From contig NZ_LDJI01000025.1 of assembly GCF_001431415.1 (NCBI RefSeq), forward strand, positions 1 to 64,000: DNA of 64,000 bases, in the 5' to 3' direction. Source of the DNA: Stenotrophomonas humi. GTDB lineage: Bacteria; Pseudomonadota; Gammaproteobacteria; Xanthomonadales; Xanthomonadaceae. Position numbers and translations under genes: made by a program. The notes beneath the pieces are model-generated. The model was not told the DNA's origin. It worked only from the letters and a program-made list of their open reading frames with translations, and made no database searches. Within the stretch, counting starts at the first letter, position 1. Each line of letters starts with the position of its first letter. Of the stretch, positions 4,464 through 10,794 are shown piece after piece.

Positions 4464-5480
4464 TCAATGGCTCACCCGAACCCGCCAGCAACCGTCGGTC
4501 TGTTGCCACTCGAACTCCACCGGCAGGAACTTTTCGATCAACCGCGCATTGCTACGGAGGTGGTCGCTGATCTGCTGGGTGGTGAAACTGCCCTCCCCGG
4601 CCAGCGCCATCGGTAGCAGCAGCTGGTCGGACAGGTGTTCGCCCACACAGGCTTGGCCTTGCAGATATCGCAATACCGTCTCGGATAACCGCGTGGCCAC
4701 CAACTCAGCGGCCAGACCTCGTTCGCCGTGACTGTCGAACATCTCCACATGCTCAGCGTGGCGCACAATGACCGAGGCGACATTCCCCGGCCCCAATGCC
4801 GGGCGCACCACGCGTACATGCCTTGGATGCGTGTCGACCCCGAGCCGGTTGCCCAGCAGATCGAGTTCACGTTGCCCAACGGCGGCGGGCAATCCCGAGA
4901 CCAGCACCGACGCACCCACTGCCTCAAGCGTGCCACGCTGCACGTGATCATAAGGCCGCACACCTGGGCACGGCTGCACTTCCAGCTCCAGCATGCCGCC
5001 GCCCGCCGGGTGAAAGCCGTACTGCTGCAGCTGCAACTCCGCTCGCACCCCCATGCGGGCCAGGGCCGGCAGATAGCAGGCCCTGATGAAATCAGCACTC
5101 GGTGCCAGCGGATTGTGCGTGCCGCCCTCCAACCGCACCCGGGAGGGGGCGTTGGCCTGCCACAATGCCGGCAGCAGGGTCTGCAGCACCAACGTCGCCG
5201 ACCCTGCACTGCCGATGGCGAAGTGATAGTCACCTGCCTGTATCGCGGCCGGCATGAAACGCAGTTTCGTTGCGCCCAACGTCGCCCCCTCAACCCGCGC
5301 ACTACCGATCTGCGCGGCGGCATTGACGGCCGTCAGATGCTGCCGCATCAGTCCCGGACGCGAACGCGCGGCACGGATGTCACTCATGCAGAAGCCGATA
5401 CCGGTGCACAGACTCAAGGTAAGTGCGGACCGCAGCAACTGTCCTCCGCCATGTGCTCCGCCAATTTCGATCATATCCAT
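4464..5480 (-). CDS. rtcA: RNA 3'-terminal phosphate cyclase RtcA
   Basis: This 338-residue enzyme converts RNA 3'-phosphate ends to 2',3'-cyclic phosphate through RNA-adenylate. It opens with IEIGGAHGGGQLLRSALTLS, the family signature, and carries the glycine-rich FHPAGGGMLELEV segment near residue 155. The adenylated histidine is expected in GEHLSDQLLLP at His282 (His309 in E. coli). The start at 5480 is preferred because AAGGAAGGC precedes it and it matches the family N-terminus; 16 in-frame codons lie upstream. It lies 59 bp after rtcB, in the usual rtcBA order of RtcR-controlled repair operons, and is the last core gene of the operon. Confidence 0.96.
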   Translation of the reverse strand: MDMIEIGGAHGGGQLLRSALTLSLCTGIGFCMSDIRAARSRPGLMRQHLTAVNAAAQIGSARVEGATLGATKLRFMPAAIQAGDYHFAIGSAGSATLVLQTLLPALWQANAPSRVRLEGGTHNPLAPSADFIRACYLPALARMGVRAELQLQQYGFHPAGGGMLELEVQPCPGVRPYDHVQRGTLEAVGASVLVSGLPAAVGQRELDLLGNRLGVDTHPRHVRVVRPALGPGNVASVIVRHAEHVEMFDSHGERGLAAELVATRLSETVLRYLQGQACVGEHLSDQLLLPMALAGEGSFTTQQISDHLRSNARLIEKFLPVEFEWQQTDGCWRVRVSH

Positions 5481-5539
5481 GGTCTTGCCTTCCTTCGGCA
5501 CCCCAGCCTTTGATGCTGGGGCGCTCATGTCATGTCATC

Positions 5540-6766
5540 TCATCCCTTCACGCATACCACCTGACGCAGGGTGTGCATGATCTCCACCAGGTCACGCTGC
5601 GCTTCCATCACCGCCTCGATTGACTTGTAGGCGGCTGGTGACTCATCCACCACCTCGGCGTCCTTGCGGCATTCCACATGTGCGGTGGCCTTGATGTGGT
5701 CGTCCACACTGATCAGCTTGCGCGCCTTGGTGCGGCTCATCACGCGGCCAGCACCGTGGCTGCAGCTGTGGAAGCTGTCCGCGTTGCCCAGCCCACGCAC
5801 GATGAAGCTCTTGGCGCCCATGCTGCCCGGGATGATGCCCATCTCACCCTTGCGCGCACTCACCGCACCCTTACGGGTCACCAATACATCCTTTCCGAAG
5901 TGGTGCTCGCGGTTGACATAGTTGTGGTGGCAGTTGACTGCCTCGGCCTGCGCCTCGAACGGCTTGCTGATCACCGTACGCGCGGCCGCAACCACATTGC
6001 GCATCATCACCTCGCGGTTGATGCGGGCGAAACGCTGTGCCCAGTCCACTGCGAACACGTAGTCGCCGTAATGCACGCTGCCTTCCGGCAGGTACGCCAG
6101 GTCCTGGTCCGGCAGATTGATCATCCAGCGACGCATCTCCTGCTTGGCCAGTTCGATGAAGTAGGTGCCGATGGCATTGCCGACGCCACGCGAGCCGGAG
6201 TGCAGCATGAACCACACGCGCTGCTCTTCATCCAGGCACACCTCGACGAAGTGATTGCCGGTGCCCAGCGTTCCCAGGTGTTTGAGGTTGTTGGTGTTCT
6301 TCAGCTTGGGGTGGCGCTCACAGATCAAGGCGAAGTCGGCAGCAAGCTGCGACCAGCCCTCGACCGCCAGCTCCGGCGCGGTGTCCCAGCTGCCCTTGTC
6401 ACGGCCGCCACGGGTCACGCTGCGGCCATGTGGCACTGCGCGTTCGATCGCGCTGCGCAGCGCCGATAGATTGTCGGGCAGGTCGCTGGCGGTCAGCGTG
6501 GTGCGGGTAGCGATCATGCCGCAGCCGATATCCACGCCGACCGCCGCCGGGATGATGGCGCCGATGGTCGGGACCACCGAGCCCACGGTTGCGCCCTTGC
6601 CCAGATGGACGTCGGGCATCACCGCTACCCATTGATGGATGAAGGGCAGGCGCGCGATGTTCTTCAGCTGCTCGCGGGCCTCGTCTTCCAAGGGCACGCC
6701 GCGCGTCCACAGCTTGATCGGTGCCGCACCCGGCTCCTGGATCACGTTGTAATTGGTGTCGTTCAT
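5540..6766 (-). CDS. rtcB: tRNA-splicing/RNA-repair ligase RtcB
   Basis: A 408-residue GTP- and Mn2+-dependent RNA ligase, exactly the length of E. coli RtcB. It joins 2',3'-cyclic phosphate or 3'-phosphate ends to 5'-OH ends. Metal-site and catalytic landmarks are present: VDIGCGM (Cys82), LGTGNHFVEV (near 168-176), HSGSRGVG (near 189) and the guanylated His337 in HSCSHGAGRVMSR. The start at 6766 gives the family N-terminus and follows CAGGAA. Upstream open frame runs into the structured RNA and is not coding. It sits 33 bp downstream of the last tRNA-like RNA and upstream of rtcA, so ligase and candidate RNA partners share a transcript. Confidence 0.97.
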   Translation of the reverse strand: MNDTNYNVIQEPGAAPIKLWTRGVPLEDEAREQLKNIARLPFIHQWVAVMPDVHLGKGATVGSVVPTIGAIIPAAVGVDIGCGMIATRTTLTASDLPDNLSALRSAIERAVPHGRSVTRGGRDKGSWDTAPELAVEGWSQLAADFALICERHPKLKNTNNLKHLGTLGTGNHFVEVCLDEEQRVWFMLHSGSRGVGNAIGTYFIELAKQEMRRWMINLPDQDLAYLPEGSVHYGDYVFAVDWAQRFARINREVMMRNVVAAARTVISKPFEAQAEAVNCHHNYVNREHHFGKDVLVTRKGAVSARKGEMGIIPGSMGAKSFIVRGLGNADSFHSCSHGAGRVMSRTKARKLISVDDHIKATAHVECRKDAEVVDESPAAYKSIEAVMEAQRDLVEIMHTLRQVVCVKG

Positions 6767-6799
6767 TGATGGCGTTCCTGTCATCTTCAAATCAAAGGT

Positions 6800-6915
6800 G
6801 CGGTGACAAACGGTGGTGGAACTGCCCGCAACGCCGGACATCTGTCTGGTATTGCGGCCGGGAGTCGAACCCGACCCCGCAGGGCTGCCTCTGTAATTCC
6901 ACCTGCATTCACCGC
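6800..6915 (-). ncRNA. tRNA-like/Y RNA-like element 4 (T-arm, no D-arm)
   Basis: This is the last of four structured units between rsr and rtcB, 116 nt on the minus strand. The ends pair as GCGGTGA (6915-6909) with TCACCGC (6806-6800). An internal loop follows, then GGTGGAAT (6903-6896) with GTTCCACC (6822-6815). Inside is a T-arm with loop GGGTTCGACTCCC. Next comes an acceptor-like stem, CCGCAA with TTGCGG, which continues into a small hairpin (GAC-agat-GTC) instead of free ends. GGAATTACAG echoes GGAACTACAG of units 2 and 3. No TAGCTCAG D-arm is present, so this is a diverged member. The fold is hand-built. Confidence 0.6.
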
Positions 6916-6935
6916 ATGAAACATCTACGAAAGGT

Positions 6936-7076
6936 GCCGGCCTGCACGACGAGGTTTGAAGGAACATCCTGCTCTACCTGACTGAGCTACCGCTGCGTTT
7001 CCGCAGCGGGCGGGATTCGAACCCGCGACCCGGAGCTTAAGAGGCTGTAGTTCCTTCGGCATTCGTGCGTGCCGAC
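6936..7076 (-). ncRNA. Y RNA (YrlA-type), permuted tRNA mimic, unit 3
   Basis: The minus-strand 141 nt fold as an inside-out tRNA. The ends form a long interrupted helix: 7076-7063 with 6949-6936, then GAAGGAAC with GTTCCTTC (7057-7050 / 6965-6958). Inside, the order is permuted: variable-loop-like GGGTC, T-arm GCGGG-TTCGAAT-CCCGC (7026-7010), then a perfect 8-bp acceptor stem CCGCTGCG/CGCAGCGG closed by a GAAA tetraloop (7001-6998), then TA and a D-arm GCTC-AGTCAGGTA-GAGC (6987-6971). An anticodon-stem remnant, GGA/TCC, joins the long helix. Bacterial Y RNAs are known to bind Rsr through such a helix and to mimic tRNA with such a module. The closed acceptor means it cannot be aminoacylated. 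Confidence 0.86.
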
Positions 7077-7119
7077 GTTGAATGAGTCATGCCAAAGCAT
7101 GAAGTAGTACGATCAAGGT

Positions 7120-7291
7120 GCCGGCTTGTACGACAAGAGTGATGGAACGTTTCACCGCCGTGTCACGAGGACAAGACGGCGATCCTGCTCTAACCACTGA
7201 GCTACCGATGCATCGCGGCGTCGGGCGGGATTCGAACCCGCGACCTGGAGCGTGAAAGGCTGTAGTTCCATCGGCATTCGTACAAACCGAC
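7120..7291 (-). ncRNA. Y RNA (YrlA-type), permuted tRNA mimic, unit 2
   Basis: The minus-strand 172 nt have the same inside-out tRNA plan as unit 3. A terminal 14-bp helix (7291-7278 with 7133-7120, two G-U pairs) is followed by GATGGAAC/GTTCCATC (7272-7265 / 7148-7141) and TTTCAC/GTGAAA. The tRNA-like part runs T-arm GCGGG-TTCGAAT-CCCGC (7241-7225), acceptor stem CCGACGC/GCATCGG with one mismatch and a six-base loop CGCGAT, TA, then D-arm GCTC-AGTGGTTA-GAGC (7202-7187). An extra GCCGT/ACGGC hairpin replaces the anticodon loop region. CGAATGCCGA and GGAACTACAGCC are shared with unit 3, so the two are tandem duplicates. Binding to the neighbouring Rsr is expected from known Y RNAs. Confidence 0.86.
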
Positions 7292-7299
7292 ATAGAGGG

Positions 7300-7389
7300 T
7301 GGGAGCAGACGGCAAGGGTTGGACTGACTCTCCGGATTCGAACCGGAGTGAACAACCAATGTAGTCAGGCCGGCATCCGCCTTCTCCCA
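7300..7389 (-). ncRNA. tRNA-like minihelix RNA, unit 1
   Basis: The first structured unit after rsr, 90 nt on the minus strand. The outer helix pairs 7389-7377 with 7312-7300 as two 6-bp blocks separated by one mismatch. The inner stem CTGACT/AGTCAG (7368-7363 / 7329-7324) abuts, without a gap, a T-arm CTCCGG-TTCGAAT-CCGGAG (7348-7330), as the acceptor stem abuts the T-arm in tRNA. The 14-nt connector contains TTGGTTG, which could supply the D-loop GG. There is no D-stem or anticodon arm. It looks like an acceptor/T-arm minihelix on a Y RNA-like base. I do not know a described equivalent. The fold is manual. Confidence 0.65.
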
Positions 7390-7406
7390 TAAAAGAATTC
7401 TCCAGG

Positions 7407-7432
7407 CCCGGCCGGCCCCATTGCCGGCCGGG
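7407..7432 (-). other. Strong hairpin just after the rsr stop codon
   Basis: A perfect 10-bp GC stem (CCCGGCCGGC/GCCGGCCGGG) with a six-base loop lies 28 bases downstream of the rsr stop. Its run of T (TTCTTTT) comes only about 10 bases later, so it is a poor terminator. It may mark an mRNA processing or 3'-protection point separating rsr mRNA from the structured RNAs, or attenuate read-through. Confidence 0.55.
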
Positions 7433-7460
7433 CATCACATCGGCGACATCCGTATCGCCC

Positions 7461-9008
7461 TTACAGATCCATTGCCGCGATCCGCTCCACCCAGCGTGGG
7501 CGTTGTGCCGACGGCAGGCTGACATTGGCCAGCAGCTCGAACACCGCATCGCTGAAGCCGCCGATATGCAGCACGTCCTCGCGCTCTACCGTCTGGCTGC
7601 TCGCCACCGGTTGCAGGTCGATGCAAACCAGCTGTGCCTGTGGGCACCGCGCCTTCAGCGCGGTCCACTCACGCATGGTTGCGGTCTCACGGTTGCCGCG
7701 GGTGTCCTGCCAGCTTTCGTTGTCCGACACCAGCACCAGCAGATCCACCTGTGCCCGCTTGCGATTGAGGTAGGCCAGTGGTGCACTTACCGACGTACCC
7801 CCACCATTGATCGCCAACTGCCGCGCCAAGGTCATCACGCTGTCGCGTGGGTTCAGCGGCTGCGGACGCACCTCGGTGTCGAACGGCAGCACCTGCGCCT
7901 GCGGGTGACCGCGCAACACACAGGCCGCGATCAAGGCCGCCACGTCGACGCAACGCGCCGCCGAGCTTGCTCCCTTGCGATAGCCGGTCACCGGCCACTG
8001 CATCGAACCGGAGACGTCCACCGCCACCACCACGTTGCCCTGCAATGCCGGCACAGAGGCGGTCGCCACTTCCATCGCGTCCTGCAGCGCGTCCAGGATC
8101 GGACGCGGCAAGGCGGCACCTGCGTGGTAGGCCATCAGCAGCTGGTACGGCATTACCCGTGAACGGGCGATCTGCTGCGGGTCACGCAGCTTGGCGGCCA
8201 CTTCGGCCACCATCGCCGCGTCCTCGAACACTCCGTGACGGGCAAAGGTGTTCAAGTTCATCCGCAACTGCTGCCAGGACGAGTTGCGCACCAGCACCGC
8301 CCACTGCGCGGCGTCCAATGCCAGCGCGCTGTAGTACTGGAACGGCAGGTCCGGCAGCATTCCGCGCGGTTCGCGCTTGAATGCTTCGTAGGCACGCAGC
8401 TCTGCTGGCAGCAACACTTCGTCGTAGGGCCGCCCGATCACCCAGGCATACAGCGCCTCACGCGCGGCATCCTGCGGCTTGGGGTGGACCATGCGGATCA
8501 CATCGGCCAGCGACGGCTGGTTGCCGATCGCCGCACGGATGATGGCCTTCGGCGAAGCCTGCTCCAGCCACTGCCGCAGCAGGCGCTTCGGCAACGACCC
8601 CAGCGAACGGCGACCCACCCGACCACTACGCATGATCTGCACGAAGGTGCGCAACATGCGGCCGTTGTCGATCACATGCGGGAAGGCAGCGGCAAAGGCC
8701 TCGCCATCACGCACGCTCAGCAGCGCCAACAACAGCGCCGGCACGTCCTTCATATGCGCCACGCCGTGGGCATAGGCGGCGGTGCGGGCAATGAAGCCGG
8801 CATCGACCTCGTCGCACAGCGCCTGCACCTTTTCCAGTTGCGCATCAGCGCTGGCGTAGAAGGTGCTGTTCAAGCAACCGGTGGCGGCGAACAGGGCCAA
8901 GGCCGCACGCGGGTCACGGGCATAGGCCGATCCACCGGCTTCGTTGCGGACCGTGGCCTTCGGCAGCAGGGCGCCGCGGAAGGATGCGAACAGGTTTGCG
9001 TTGGCCAT
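7461..9008 (-). CDS. rsr: Ro60/TROVE-domain ring protein Rsr
   Basis: A 515-residue bacterial Ro60 orthologue. The N-terminal TROVE HEAT-repeat ring (about 1-320) opens with ANANLFASFRGALLPK and contains the N-G-x-A-Y/S-A-x-D type segment GGSAYARDPRAALALFAATG. It is followed by a von Willebrand A domain with a complete MIDAS start, VVAVDVSGSM (Asp331, Ser333, Ser335), and later VSDNESW. Ro60 rings bind Y RNAs on the outer surface and misfolded or damaged RNA ends in the cavity. Four tRNA-like RNAs follow immediately downstream. The start at 9008 follows AAGGAG at good spacing, and a sigma54 promoter lies about 50 bp upstream. This is the first gene of the rsr-Y RNAs-rtcBA operon. Confidence 0.95.
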   Translation of the reverse strand: MANANLFASFRGALLPKATVRNEAGGSAYARDPRAALALFAATGCLNSTFYASADAQLEKVQALCDEVDAGFIARTAAYAHGVAHMKDVPALLLALLSVRDGEAFAAAFPHVIDNGRMLRTFVQIMRSGRVGRRSLGSLPKRLLRQWLEQASPKAIIRAAIGNQPSLADVIRMVHPKPQDAAREALYAWVIGRPYDEVLLPAELRAYEAFKREPRGMLPDLPFQYYSALALDAAQWAVLVRNSSWQQLRMNLNTFARHGVFEDAAMVAEVAAKLRDPQQIARSRVMPYQLLMAYHAGAALPRPILDALQDAMEVATASVPALQGNVVVAVDVSGSMQWPVTGYRKGASSAARCVDVAALIAACVLRGHPQAQVLPFDTEVRPQPLNPRDSVMTLARQLAINGGGTSVSAPLAYLNRKRAQVDLLVLVSDNESWQDTRGNRETATMREWTALKARCPQAQLVCIDLQPVASSQTVEREDVLHIGGFSDAVFELLANVSLPSAQRPRWVERIAAMDL

Positions 9009-9058
9009 TTCGTACTCCTTGGCGGGAACGGCCCGCCGCTTGTCTTGCCCCTATAAAA

Positions 9059-9074
9059 GCAATGGCCGTGCCAA
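9059..9074 (-). promoter_or_regulatory. Sigma54 (RpoN) promoter of the RNA-repair operon
   Basis: The minus strand reads TTGGCACGGCCATTGC, an essentially perfect match to the sigma54 consensus TGGCACG-N4-TTGC with GG at -24 and GC at -12 in correct spacing. Transcription should start near 9047, giving a leader of about 38 nt before rsr. The divergent gene encodes RtcR, a sigma54-dependent activator. Confidence 0.93.
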
Positions 9075-9104
9075 CTTTTCGATACTCCAATCAAGATACT
9101 GATT

Positions 9105-9120
9105 TACAAAGGTATTTGTA
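9105..9120. promoter_or_regulatory. Palindromic candidate RtcR upstream activator site
   Basis: An AT-rich inverted repeat, TACAAA-GGTA-TTTGTA, lies about 30 bp upstream of the sigma54 -24 element, in the divergent rsr/rtcR spacer. It stands out from the surrounding high-GC DNA and is the best enhancer candidate for RtcR. A binding function is inferred from position and symmetry only. The distance to the promoter is short for an enhancer, so further sites may lie nearer rtcR. Confidence 0.5.
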
Positions 9121-9195
9121 TTTTTCCGGAGAAGATTTGCACCTCCCGATTGCGCCTTTACGTATACTTTCAGCGCGCTATTTATAGGAATGGAT

Positions 9196-10794
9196 ATGTC
9201 CAAGCGTCAGGTCATCTTCGGCATGCTCGGCACCCAGCTCGATTCGGGCAGCGGCCCCGGTCGTTGGGAAAAATGGCGGCCCACCGTAGCCCTGGGCATG
9301 CATGAAGACTTCCAGCCCGATCGCATCGAGCTGATGCTGGACGAGCGCCGCTTCAGCCGGCTGGCCAAACTGGTGCAGGAAGATCTGGCTCTGGTATCGC
9401 CGGGTACCGAGCTGCGCCTGCACGACACCTATCTGGTCGACCCCTGGGAATTCGAAGGCGTGTACGCACGCCTGCATGACTTTCTTGCGGCCTATCCATT
9501 CCAGCCGGACGAGGAGGACTATTACGTCCACATCACCACCGGCACCCACGTCACCCAGATCTGCTGGTTCCTGCTGACCGAGAGCCGCCACTTCCCCGGC
9601 CGCCTGCTGCAGACCTCCCCGCCGCGCAAACAGGCCAATGGCGACCCCGGCAGCCACACGGTGATCGACCTGGACCTGTCGCGTTACGACCATATCGCCC
9701 AGCGCTTCGCCCAGCAGCAGCTGCAGGACCGCGACCTGCTCAAGAGCGGCATCGCCACCCGCAACCCGGCCTTCAACCGGATGATCGAGCAGATCGAGAA
9801 AGTGGCCACGCGCTCGCGCGCACCAATGCTGCTGACCGGCCCCACCGGCGCCGGCAAGAGCCAACTGGCCAAGCGTGTGTTCGAGCTGAAGAAACTCAAA
9901 CACCAGCTGCCCGGTCGCTTCGTTGAAGTGAACTGCGCCACCCTGCGCGGCGACGGCGCGATGAGCACCCTGTTCGGCCACACCAAGGGCGCCTATACCG
10001 GCGCCAGCAGTGACCGTGCCGGCCTGCTGCGTTCGGCCCACCAAGGCCTGCTGTTCCTCGACGAGATCGGCGAACTGGGGCCCGACGAACAGGCCATGCT
10101 GCTGCGCGCACTGGAAGAAAAGCGCTTCCTGCCGGTCGGCAGTGACCGCGAAGTGGAGAGCGATTTCCAGCTGATTGCCGGCACCAACCGCGATCTGCAG
10201 CATGACGTACGCCAAGGCCGCTTCCGCGAGGACCTGCTGGCGCGCCTGAACCTGTGGACCTACCAACTACCCGGCCTGGCCGAACGCAGCGAAGACATCG
10301 AACCCAACCTGGAATTCGAGCTGGAGCGCTGGTCGCGCGAGCAGCACGAACGCGTGCGCTTCAACGCCGAAGCACGCAACCGCTACCTTGGCTTCGCGAC
10401 CAGCAGCGAAGCGGCATGGCGCGGCAACTTCCGCGACCTCGGCGCAAGCGTGGTGCGCATGGCAACACTGGCAAATGCCGGGCGCATCCAGATCGATGGC
10501 GTCGATGAGGAGATCAGCCGCCTGCGCACGCAGTGGCATGGCGGCGATGACGCATCGCCCCTGCTGGCATTGATGGGCGATGCGGCAGGCCAACTGGACC
10601 ACTTCGACCGCGTGCAGCTGGAAGAAGTGGTGCGCGTCTGCCTACGCTCGAAAAATTTGTCTGCCGCCGGTCGTGAACTGTTCGCGGTATCACGCACTCA
10701 GCGCGCCAGCACCAACGACGCCGACCGCCTGCGCAAGTACTTGGCCAAGTTCGAGCTGGATTGGGAACAGTTGCGCCAACACGCCGCGCAGTGA
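9196..10794 (+). CDS. rtcR: Sigma54-dependent RNA-repair regulator RtcR
   Basis: A 532-residue activator. The N-terminal RtcR-type CARF domain (about 1-180) opens with KRQVIFGMLGTQLD and contains YYVHITTGTHVTQICW. In known RtcR this domain senses RNA ends, reportedly tRNA fragments with 2',3'-cyclic phosphate. The central AAA+ domain has Walker A GPTGAGKS (near 215), the sigma54-contact loop GAYTGA (near 265) and Walker B LLFLDEIGEL. The C-terminal region ends in a helix-turn-helix-like segment around NLSAAGRELFAVS. The start at 9196 is chosen over 9190 because TAGGA then has proper spacing. It is divergent from rsr and should activate the sigma54 promoter there. Confidence 0.95.
   Translation: MSKRQVIFGMLGTQLDSGSGPGRWEKWRPTVALGMHEDFQPDRIELMLDERRFSRLAKLVQEDLALVSPGTELRLHDTYLVDPWEFEGVYARLHDFLAAYPFQPDEEDYYVHITTGTHVTQICWFLLTESRHFPGRLLQTSPPRKQANGDPGSHTVIDLDLSRYDHIAQRFAQQQLQDRDLLKSGIATRNPAFNRMIEQIEKVATRSRAPMLLTGPTGAGKSQLAKRVFELKKLKHQLPGRFVEVNCATLRGDGAMSTLFGHTKGAYTGASSDRAGLLRSAHQGLLFLDEIGELGPDEQAMLLRALEEKRFLPVGSDREVESDFQLIAGTNRDLQHDVRQGRFREDLLARLNLWTYQLPGLAERSEDIEPNLEFELERWSREQHERVRFNAEARNRYLGFATSSEAAWRGNFRDLGASVVRMATLANAGRIQIDGVDEEISRLRTQWHGGDDASPLLALMGDAAGQLDHFDRVQLEEVVRVCLRSKNLSAAGRELFAVSRTQRASTNDADRLRKYLAKFELDWEQLRQHAAQ

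Follow-up and report, generated by a model that had tools for sequence, protein, structure and literature searches.

The spacer between rsr and rtcB in Stenotrophomonas humi was analysed in a window of 64,000 nucleotides (nt), which comprises positions 1 to 64,000 of contig NZ_LDJI01000025.1 (assembly GCF_001431415.1) and contains an RNA repair operon with four Y RNAs. The question addressed is the role of bacterial Ro60 and its Y RNAs in an operon for mending cut tRNAs. Gene order, the four Y RNAs, their conserved structures and a 7-nt anticodon-like hairpin present in two of them are established here. On the minus strand the genes read rsr, a 694-nt spacer, rtcB and rtcA, with rtcR oriented oppositely, and the features of the locus are as follows.

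4464-5528, minus strand: rtcA, RNA cyclase (Pfam RTC)
5540-6766, minus strand: rtcB, RNA ligase (Pfam RtcB)
6800-6915, minus strand: Y RNA d, 116 nt, with a UNCG-capped hairpin, T-arm and acceptor-like hairpin, without D-arm
6936-7076, minus strand: Y RNA c, 141 nt, with a full permuted tRNA-like domain (YrlA match and pairs)
6971-6987, minus strand: D-arm of c
6990-7009, minus strand: covarying acceptor-like stem of c with a GAAA closing loop
7010-7026, minus strand: T-arm of c
7034-7046, minus strand: anticodon-like hairpin of c, AGC-CTCTTAA-GCT, its loop the same as that of the genome's tRNA-Lys(CUU)
7119-7292, minus strand: Y RNA b, 174 nt, with Y stem, anticodon-like hairpin, T-arm, closed acceptor stem, D-arm and extra hairpin
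7156-7181, minus strand: extra hairpin of b, which follows the D-arm and has a loop of 5 nt
7249-7261, minus strand: anticodon-like hairpin of b, AGC-CTTTCAC-GCT, its loop the same as that of the genome's tRNA-Glu(UUC)
7301-7388, minus strand: Y RNA a, 88 nt, with Y stem and T-arm only (Y-stem descriptor, YrlA match and pairs)
7404-7436, minus strand: GC-rich hairpin with an AAUGGG-type loop, directly 3' of rsr
7461-9008, minus strand: rsr, the Ro60 orthologue (Pfam vWA_Ro60)
9059-9073, minus strand: sigma54-type promoter TGGCAC-N5-TTGC upstream of rsr (motif match)
9190-10794, plus strand: rtcR, a divergently oriented sigma54 activator whose N-terminal domain is of the RtcR type (Pfam RtcR and Sigma54_activat)

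A first-pass annotation, made from the sequence alone, had described rsr, the RNAs, rtcB and rtcA as one operon under sigma54/RtcR control, and this is borne out by the Pfam matches, the promoter motif (one match across the window, 0.35 expected by chance) and the divergent rtcR, so that the locus has the genes and Y RNAs of an RtcR-controlled RNA repair operon together with its sigma54 site. Gene order, divergent rtcR and sigma54 promoter are like those of the Salmonella rsr-yrlBA-rtcBA operon (PMC7790460; PMC9879122). Unlike that operon, for which two Y RNAs are named in print, the present one has four, no YrlB match and two RNAs with an anticodon-like hairpin.

The Rfam model YrlA (RF02553) matched the spacer four times in cmscan. 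RNA c exceeded the 69-bit cut-off (6940-7069, 75.3 bits), and b (7159-7284, 39.6 bits), d (6797-6915, 33.9 bits) and a (7303-7383, 27.5 bits) were under it; YrlB gave no match in the spacer at E up to 10. A Y-stem descriptor independent of the Rfam model (AUGC, UAC, two paired segments and an internal loop) found exactly four Y RNAs in the spacer with scores of 13-17.5, the top score in 60 dinucleotide shuffles being 9.5; as it requires AUGC and UAC, Y RNAs without these go undetected. The four Y RNA-like RNAs claimed at first pass are confirmed, and their lengths, given then as about 90, 172, 141 and 116 nt, were 88, 174, 141 and 116 nt when measured from stem to stem in the order of transcription a, b, c and d. 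Each has paired ends with an internal loop, the predicted Rsr site, and each carries the TTCGANT T-loop as had been noted. The three architectures hold as well, a having the T-arm only, b and c the complete tRNA-like domain of T, acceptor and D arms, and d lacking the D-arm. The extra hairpin of b was ruled out as an anticodon arm by its 5-nt loop. With the same E limit of 10, YrlA was matched 15 times in the whole genome, including 11 times outside the spacer; four of the 11 were checked as candidates for further Y RNAs and rejected, all four lying on tRNA clusters.

Compensatory substitutions in homologues, which the first-pass annotation had proposed to look for, were sought in all four RNAs and found, clearly for c, moderately for d and b and weakly for a. 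In class c (38 Xanthomonadaceae sequences, author-picked from 107 references that have both T-arm and D-arm) 96.2% of cells were paired, as against 35-51% when slid, and 14 of 31 pairs had changed on both sides (slid 3-7; shuffled mean 11.1, 2/500 as high). The Y stem itself covaries (helices 1 and 2), as does the acceptor-like stem (helix 4). For class d, with 12 of 14 Stenotrophomonas last copies and the two short ones excluded, six pairs had changed on both sides (shuffled 2.6, 2/500 as high), and the count of pair types was no better than shuffled (248/500). Class b (five sequences) had five such pairs, with 31/500 shuffles as high, and eight cells changed on both sides versus 3.2 in shuffles (0/500); class a (five sequences) had two pairs, with 30/500 as high.

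Y RNAs with both T-arm and D-arm, here called T+D, often have a 3-base pair (bp) hairpin with a 7-nt loop between the Y stem and the T-arm, the loop being mostly C-U-N-N-N-A-(A/C); the stretch in RNA c reads UAC-AGC-CUCUUAA-GCU-CC-GGGUC-T-arm. Of 109 unique T+D stretches that are 18 nt or longer, 78 have at least three Watson-Crick pairs and a 7-nt loop anchored after UAC (null mean 7.1, top 14 of 200). Loop sizes of 4, 5, 6, 8, 9 and 11 were inside the null range and a loop of 10 reached 19, exceeding the null maximum of 15, and Y RNAs with the T-arm only had the 7-nt-loop stem in 2/42 (null 3.3). With the geometry fixed at 10 nt before the T-arm and a loop of 7, leaving no choice of register, 92 unique 21-mers could be tested, rows with a stretch below 21 nt (37/147) being excluded. 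All three pairs were present in 79 of the 92, on 15 distinct helices, against 0-1 when slid by 1 or 2 and a shuffled mean of 15.5 (top 27); in some of the 13 failures the hairpin appears shifted by one. A fourth anticodon-stem pair occurs in 3/92. Among the 79 loops, U33 is found in 69, A37 in 67 and C32 or U32 in 77, and the entropies of positions 32-38 are 0.91, 0.64, 1.96, 1.52, 1.88, 0.76 and 1.36 bits. Counting short rows as without hairpin, it is present in 95/147 T+D rows and 79/97 loci. By groups assigned by hand, these rows are 50/64 in Xanthomonadaceae, 10/11 in other Xanthomonadales, 12/12 in Burkholderiales, 7/15 in Alphaproteobacteria, 6/21 in Verrucomicrobiota and 2/4 in Phycisphaerales, with single cases elsewhere; it was absent from the T+D rows of Polyangia (two), PVC (two), Acidobacteriota (one) and Methylomonas (one). 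The hairpin is provisionally regarded as previously undescribed, no description of it being found in the available parts of the literature searched, a scope to which the primary Y RNA papers do not belong.

The loops were compared with the tRNAs of the window genome (58 matches, 47 unique sequences, 43 loops). Ten of 54 unique loops are the same as a tRNA loop, with 4.4 expected from independent columns (P 0.003). Across the eight loci compared, the similarity to tRNA is collinear from the anticodon loop to the acceptor strand, often best with tRNA-Asp and otherwise with tRNA-Gly, Lys or Pro; the second RNA of locus L012 matches tRNA-Asp over 40 nt at 87.5%. C36 is associated with C38 (P 0.023). 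Further likeness to tRNA was seen in single arrays. A Y RNA with GGTAGACGCA, a tetraloop- or short-loop-capped stem, a long arm and a TTCAAGT-type T-arm stands fourth in L113, L115 and L133 and third in L118; this type presumably resembles tRNA-Leu, to which the fourth Y RNA of L113 has an 11-nt match. The sixth Y RNA of Agitococcus (L096) has a 5-bp arm, AGGGA-CTAAAAA-TCCCT, and is 95.7% identical over 23 nt to the window genome's tRNA-Leu(UAA).

The rate of change was compared in 14 close pairs, chosen as independent from 26 examined. The triplet differed at 16/63 sites, the loop flanks at 13/82, the linkers at 794/4917 and other Y RNA sites at 499/5351. The triplet changes faster than the other Y RNA sites (P 0.0002) and not clearly faster than the linkers (P 0.058), and diversifying selection on it is thereby unsupported. 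The loop frame is recognisable over long distances, and among close relatives no slowing by selection is seen in either the frame or the triplet.

The same geometry recurs in viral contigs. A pattern of T-arm, 8-24 nt and TAGCTCAG, plus one further locus, gave at least 124 matches in 121 loci. Among the matches listed, 86 are inside ARAGORN tRNAs and in 15 the acceptor strands do not pair; the remaining 23 yield 21 unique permuted elements, 12 of which have the three pairs (shuffled mean 0.29, top 3; no other combination of distance 8-12 and loop 4-10 above 3). All 12 have U33 and a purine at 37, and six of their loops are the same as a tRNA loop of the window genome. In actinophage stretches near Ro-like genes (L190-L200) the geometry is present in 3/11, those of Alice, LRRHood and GMA2, in an element not annotated as tRNA; in the others the element is shifted, incomplete or not found. 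In Gordonia phage GMA2 (L193:4201-4978) the YrlA-like element lies close to the Ro-like gene, flanked by a tmRNA match on one side and by a tRNA and then a pistol ribozyme match on the other. Searches for RtcB at E up to 1e-4 gave no match in seven of eight phages and in two (L090, L100) of six genomes whose rsr does not adjoin rtcB. Independence of the hairpin from rtcB is supported by two phages, Alice and GMA2, the only hairpin carriers known here among the rtcB-unmatched records; all three L090 sequences entered in the fixed-geometry test failed it.

Four Y RNAs in one spacer are ordinary. The gene rsr was found in 16/91 genomes of the genus, 28/297 of the family sample and 5/369 of the class sample, of which two belong to the genus. 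Named loci are the best 80 of at least 514 relatives, with close relatives favoured, and 14 of the 80 duplicate loci already in the set. In 99 non-duplicate complete rsr-rtcB spacers surveyed with the Y-stem descriptor, 0, 1, 2, 3, 4 and 5 Y RNAs were found in 1, 7, 33, 34, 21 and 3 spacers, respectively, so that 88/99 have two to four; 990 shuffled spacers gave two matches and 150,651 nt of rsr coding sequence gave none. The suggestion made at first pass that four in series represent a special expansion did not hold, since 24/99 spacers have four or five. Copies within a single array vary in architecture, and the T-loop is not universal, many related arrays including members without one. L184, an enterobacterial contig recorded as a Salmonella phage, has YrlB, YrlA and then a third Y RNA (924-1034) before rtcB. 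Y RNA matches were also seen upstream of rsr in Neisseria elongata (L110) and a Sandaracinaceae metagenome-assembled genome (L117), neither of which had a Y RNA match at score 11 downstream of rsr. The spacer of L032 contains three Y RNA 3' halves (170, 292 and 414); two have no 5' half, which looks like a trace of recombination. By eye, a small open reading frame (about 109 residues, hydrophobic at its start) lies within the arrays of L028, L026 and L032; in the Lysobacter-type array L028 the small protein had no Pfam match above cut-off. In Xanthomonas sacchari (L187:4444-4579) the Rfam tRNA model scored 39.7 bits, above its cut-off, across two adjacent Y RNAs, which is a pitfall for annotation.

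The hairpin directly 3' of rsr has a like in 32/41 Xanthomonadaceae loci, with stems that differ among them, and some Lysobacter-type loci have a different hairpin there with an A-GGAC-type loop. A genome-wide repeat was ruled out, as the genome has a single perfect copy plus a second that differs at three positions. Elsewhere in the window, the Rfam small RNA sX13 was matched at 75-188 on the minus strand (117.6 bits).

Taken together, the spacer is rather probably a set of four Y RNAs of graded tRNA mimicry that are displayed by Rsr and made when broken tRNAs activate RtcR. RtcR binds 5' tRNA halves with a cyclic phosphate (PMC7790460), and the RtcR/sigma54 promoter would have the Y RNAs co-transcribed with rsr, rtcB and rtcA, the array most likely being cut into separate RNAs afterwards. 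Rsr should bind the internal loop of each two-part Y stem. The domain beyond the Y stem is modular and mimics tRNA to varying extents, with a as a T-arm stub and with b and c resembling circularly permuted tRNAs that run from anticodon-like hairpin through variable loop, T-arm and loop-closed acceptor stem to D-arm. When broken tRNAs activate the operon, Rsr would present these tRNA-shaped surfaces to tRNA-handling proteins such as modifying enzymes and PNPase, to which b and c might add anticodon nucleases, and so either be recruited to its partners or compete with real tRNAs; processing, Rsr binding, partner choice and decoy action are what we infer here. YrlA is a substrate of DusA and TruB and its effector domain binds PNPase (reviewed in PMC8394870), and in the Deinococcus RYPER of Rsr, Y RNA and PNPase the Rsr is likewise provided with a tethering Y RNA (PMC8394870, PMC4726728). 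Competitive inhibition of the nuclease by YrlA has been suggested (PMC7790460). With their anticodon-like loops, b and c may be stand-ins for tRNAs under attack, and the decoy or ligase-target role proposed at first pass would have a tangible feature in this loop. A wider form of this idea is judged unlikely, in which Y RNA arrays would be panels of Ro60-held anticodon-loop baits, each a complete permuted tRNA whose anticodon varies, produced during tRNA breakage to bind or absorb anticodon nucleases and so protect cellular tRNAs, and in which phages would have them next to their own tRNA genes to the same end.

Several observations weigh against display of tRNA mimics by Rsr. The tested register lacks the hairpin in 52/147 T+D Y RNAs, and related sequences inflate the counts of hairpins, loops and tRNA comparisons. 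No tRNA loop of the window genome is the same as 44/54 unique loops, and A34 occurs in 24/79 loops versus 1/43 real tRNA loops, so the loops are not faithful copies; the over-representation of U35 (46/79 versus 10/43) also speaks against faithful copying. That loop flanks and triplet differ between close relatives about as often as linkers counts against a precise, fixed target. Fragments of Salmonella YrlA were undetected under tRNA-cutting conditions (PMC7790460), and an enterobacterial YrlA, not that of S. Typhimurium itself, fails the fixed-geometry test. By eye its hairpin is degenerate, with 2 bp and a 6-nt loop, and the Salmonella negative may therefore not extend to RNAs like b and c. 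Given a loop that changes at about the linker rate and a hairpin in two phages without an rtcB match, neither a decoy nor an RtcB substrate is established.

A plainer explanation, possible if somewhat doubtful, is dosage and stability alone, several Y RNAs supplying ligand for Rsr, with the tRNA-like part serving folding or stability and the 7-nt loop a neutral cap. The unslowed triplet and loop flanks, a copy number of 0-5 and the T+D Y RNAs without hairpin all agree with it, but the 7-nt loop, U33 and A37 persist over long distances on 15 different helices, the hairpin recurs in viral contigs and copies of one array differ in architecture. It is improbable that the RNAs are instead substrates of RtcB and RtcA or ligands of RtcR, cut in the anticodon-like loop and then signalling to RtcR or being resealed, with a feedback loop as the outcome. 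They share the operon, the Y stem would hold both parts together after a cut and the tRNA fragments bound by RtcR offer a precedent (PMC7790460); against this stand the hairpins of Alice and GMA2, which have no rtcB match, and the missing YrlA fragments in Salmonella (PMC7790460). The rtcB-unmatched genomes L090 and L100 are of no help here, since all L090 sequences fail the geometry test.

Very improbable is a leader acting in cis on rtcB, with tRNA-like control of translation or decay inside the messenger. The structures do directly precede rtcB, a hairpin follows rsr in most related loci and a tRNA-like leader is known in the yjdF riboswitch (PMC9142559); against such a role stand the covariation of the Y stem itself in class c, the variable copy number, the matches upstream of rsr in L110 and L117 and the GMA2 copy, which adjoins tRNA genes. 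Hardly credible, finally, is that b and c mature into functional tRNAs, with the Y stem removed and the ends joined by RtcB. Archaeal and metazoan RtcB joins tRNA halves (PMC7790460), the full set of arms is present in permuted order and CCA lies within 15/146 acceptor loops. As in algal and archaeal circularly permuted tRNA genes, the acceptor-end termini are joined by a loop (PMC3978253); unlike in those genes, the break between D-arm and anticodon arm contains the Y stem and the anticodon stem has 3 bp only. With a fourth pair in just 3/92 sequences, a mature tRNA would lack a normal anticodon stem; the acceptor loop is 4 nt in 92/146 and ARAGORN calls no tRNA within the window. Working permuted tRNAs are thus weakened by the missing lower stem pairs, and neither a full stem nor a tRNA call was found.

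The RNAs described here remain close to YrlA (RF02553) in adjoining rsr, in a Y stem with AUGC and a CUUGUC-type internal loop and in the T-arm, closed acceptor stem and D-arm, and differ from it in the anticodon-like hairpin of 3 bp and 7 nt between Y stem and T-arm. The YrlA domain has been likened to the D, T and acceptor arms of tRNA (PMC8394870), and an anticodon hairpin in Y RNAs has no mention in the available part of that review. The 13 nt of the hairpin fall outside the consensus positions of the Rfam model in the alignments inspected and are treated there as an insertion, which suggests that the model omits a conserved helix. As the enterobacterial YrlA hairpin looks degenerate, results obtained with enterobacterial YrlA may not represent the family. 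If many YrlA-type RNAs bear an anticodon-like loop, the idea of competition between YrlA and the nuclease (PMC7790460) would become testable by single loop swaps.

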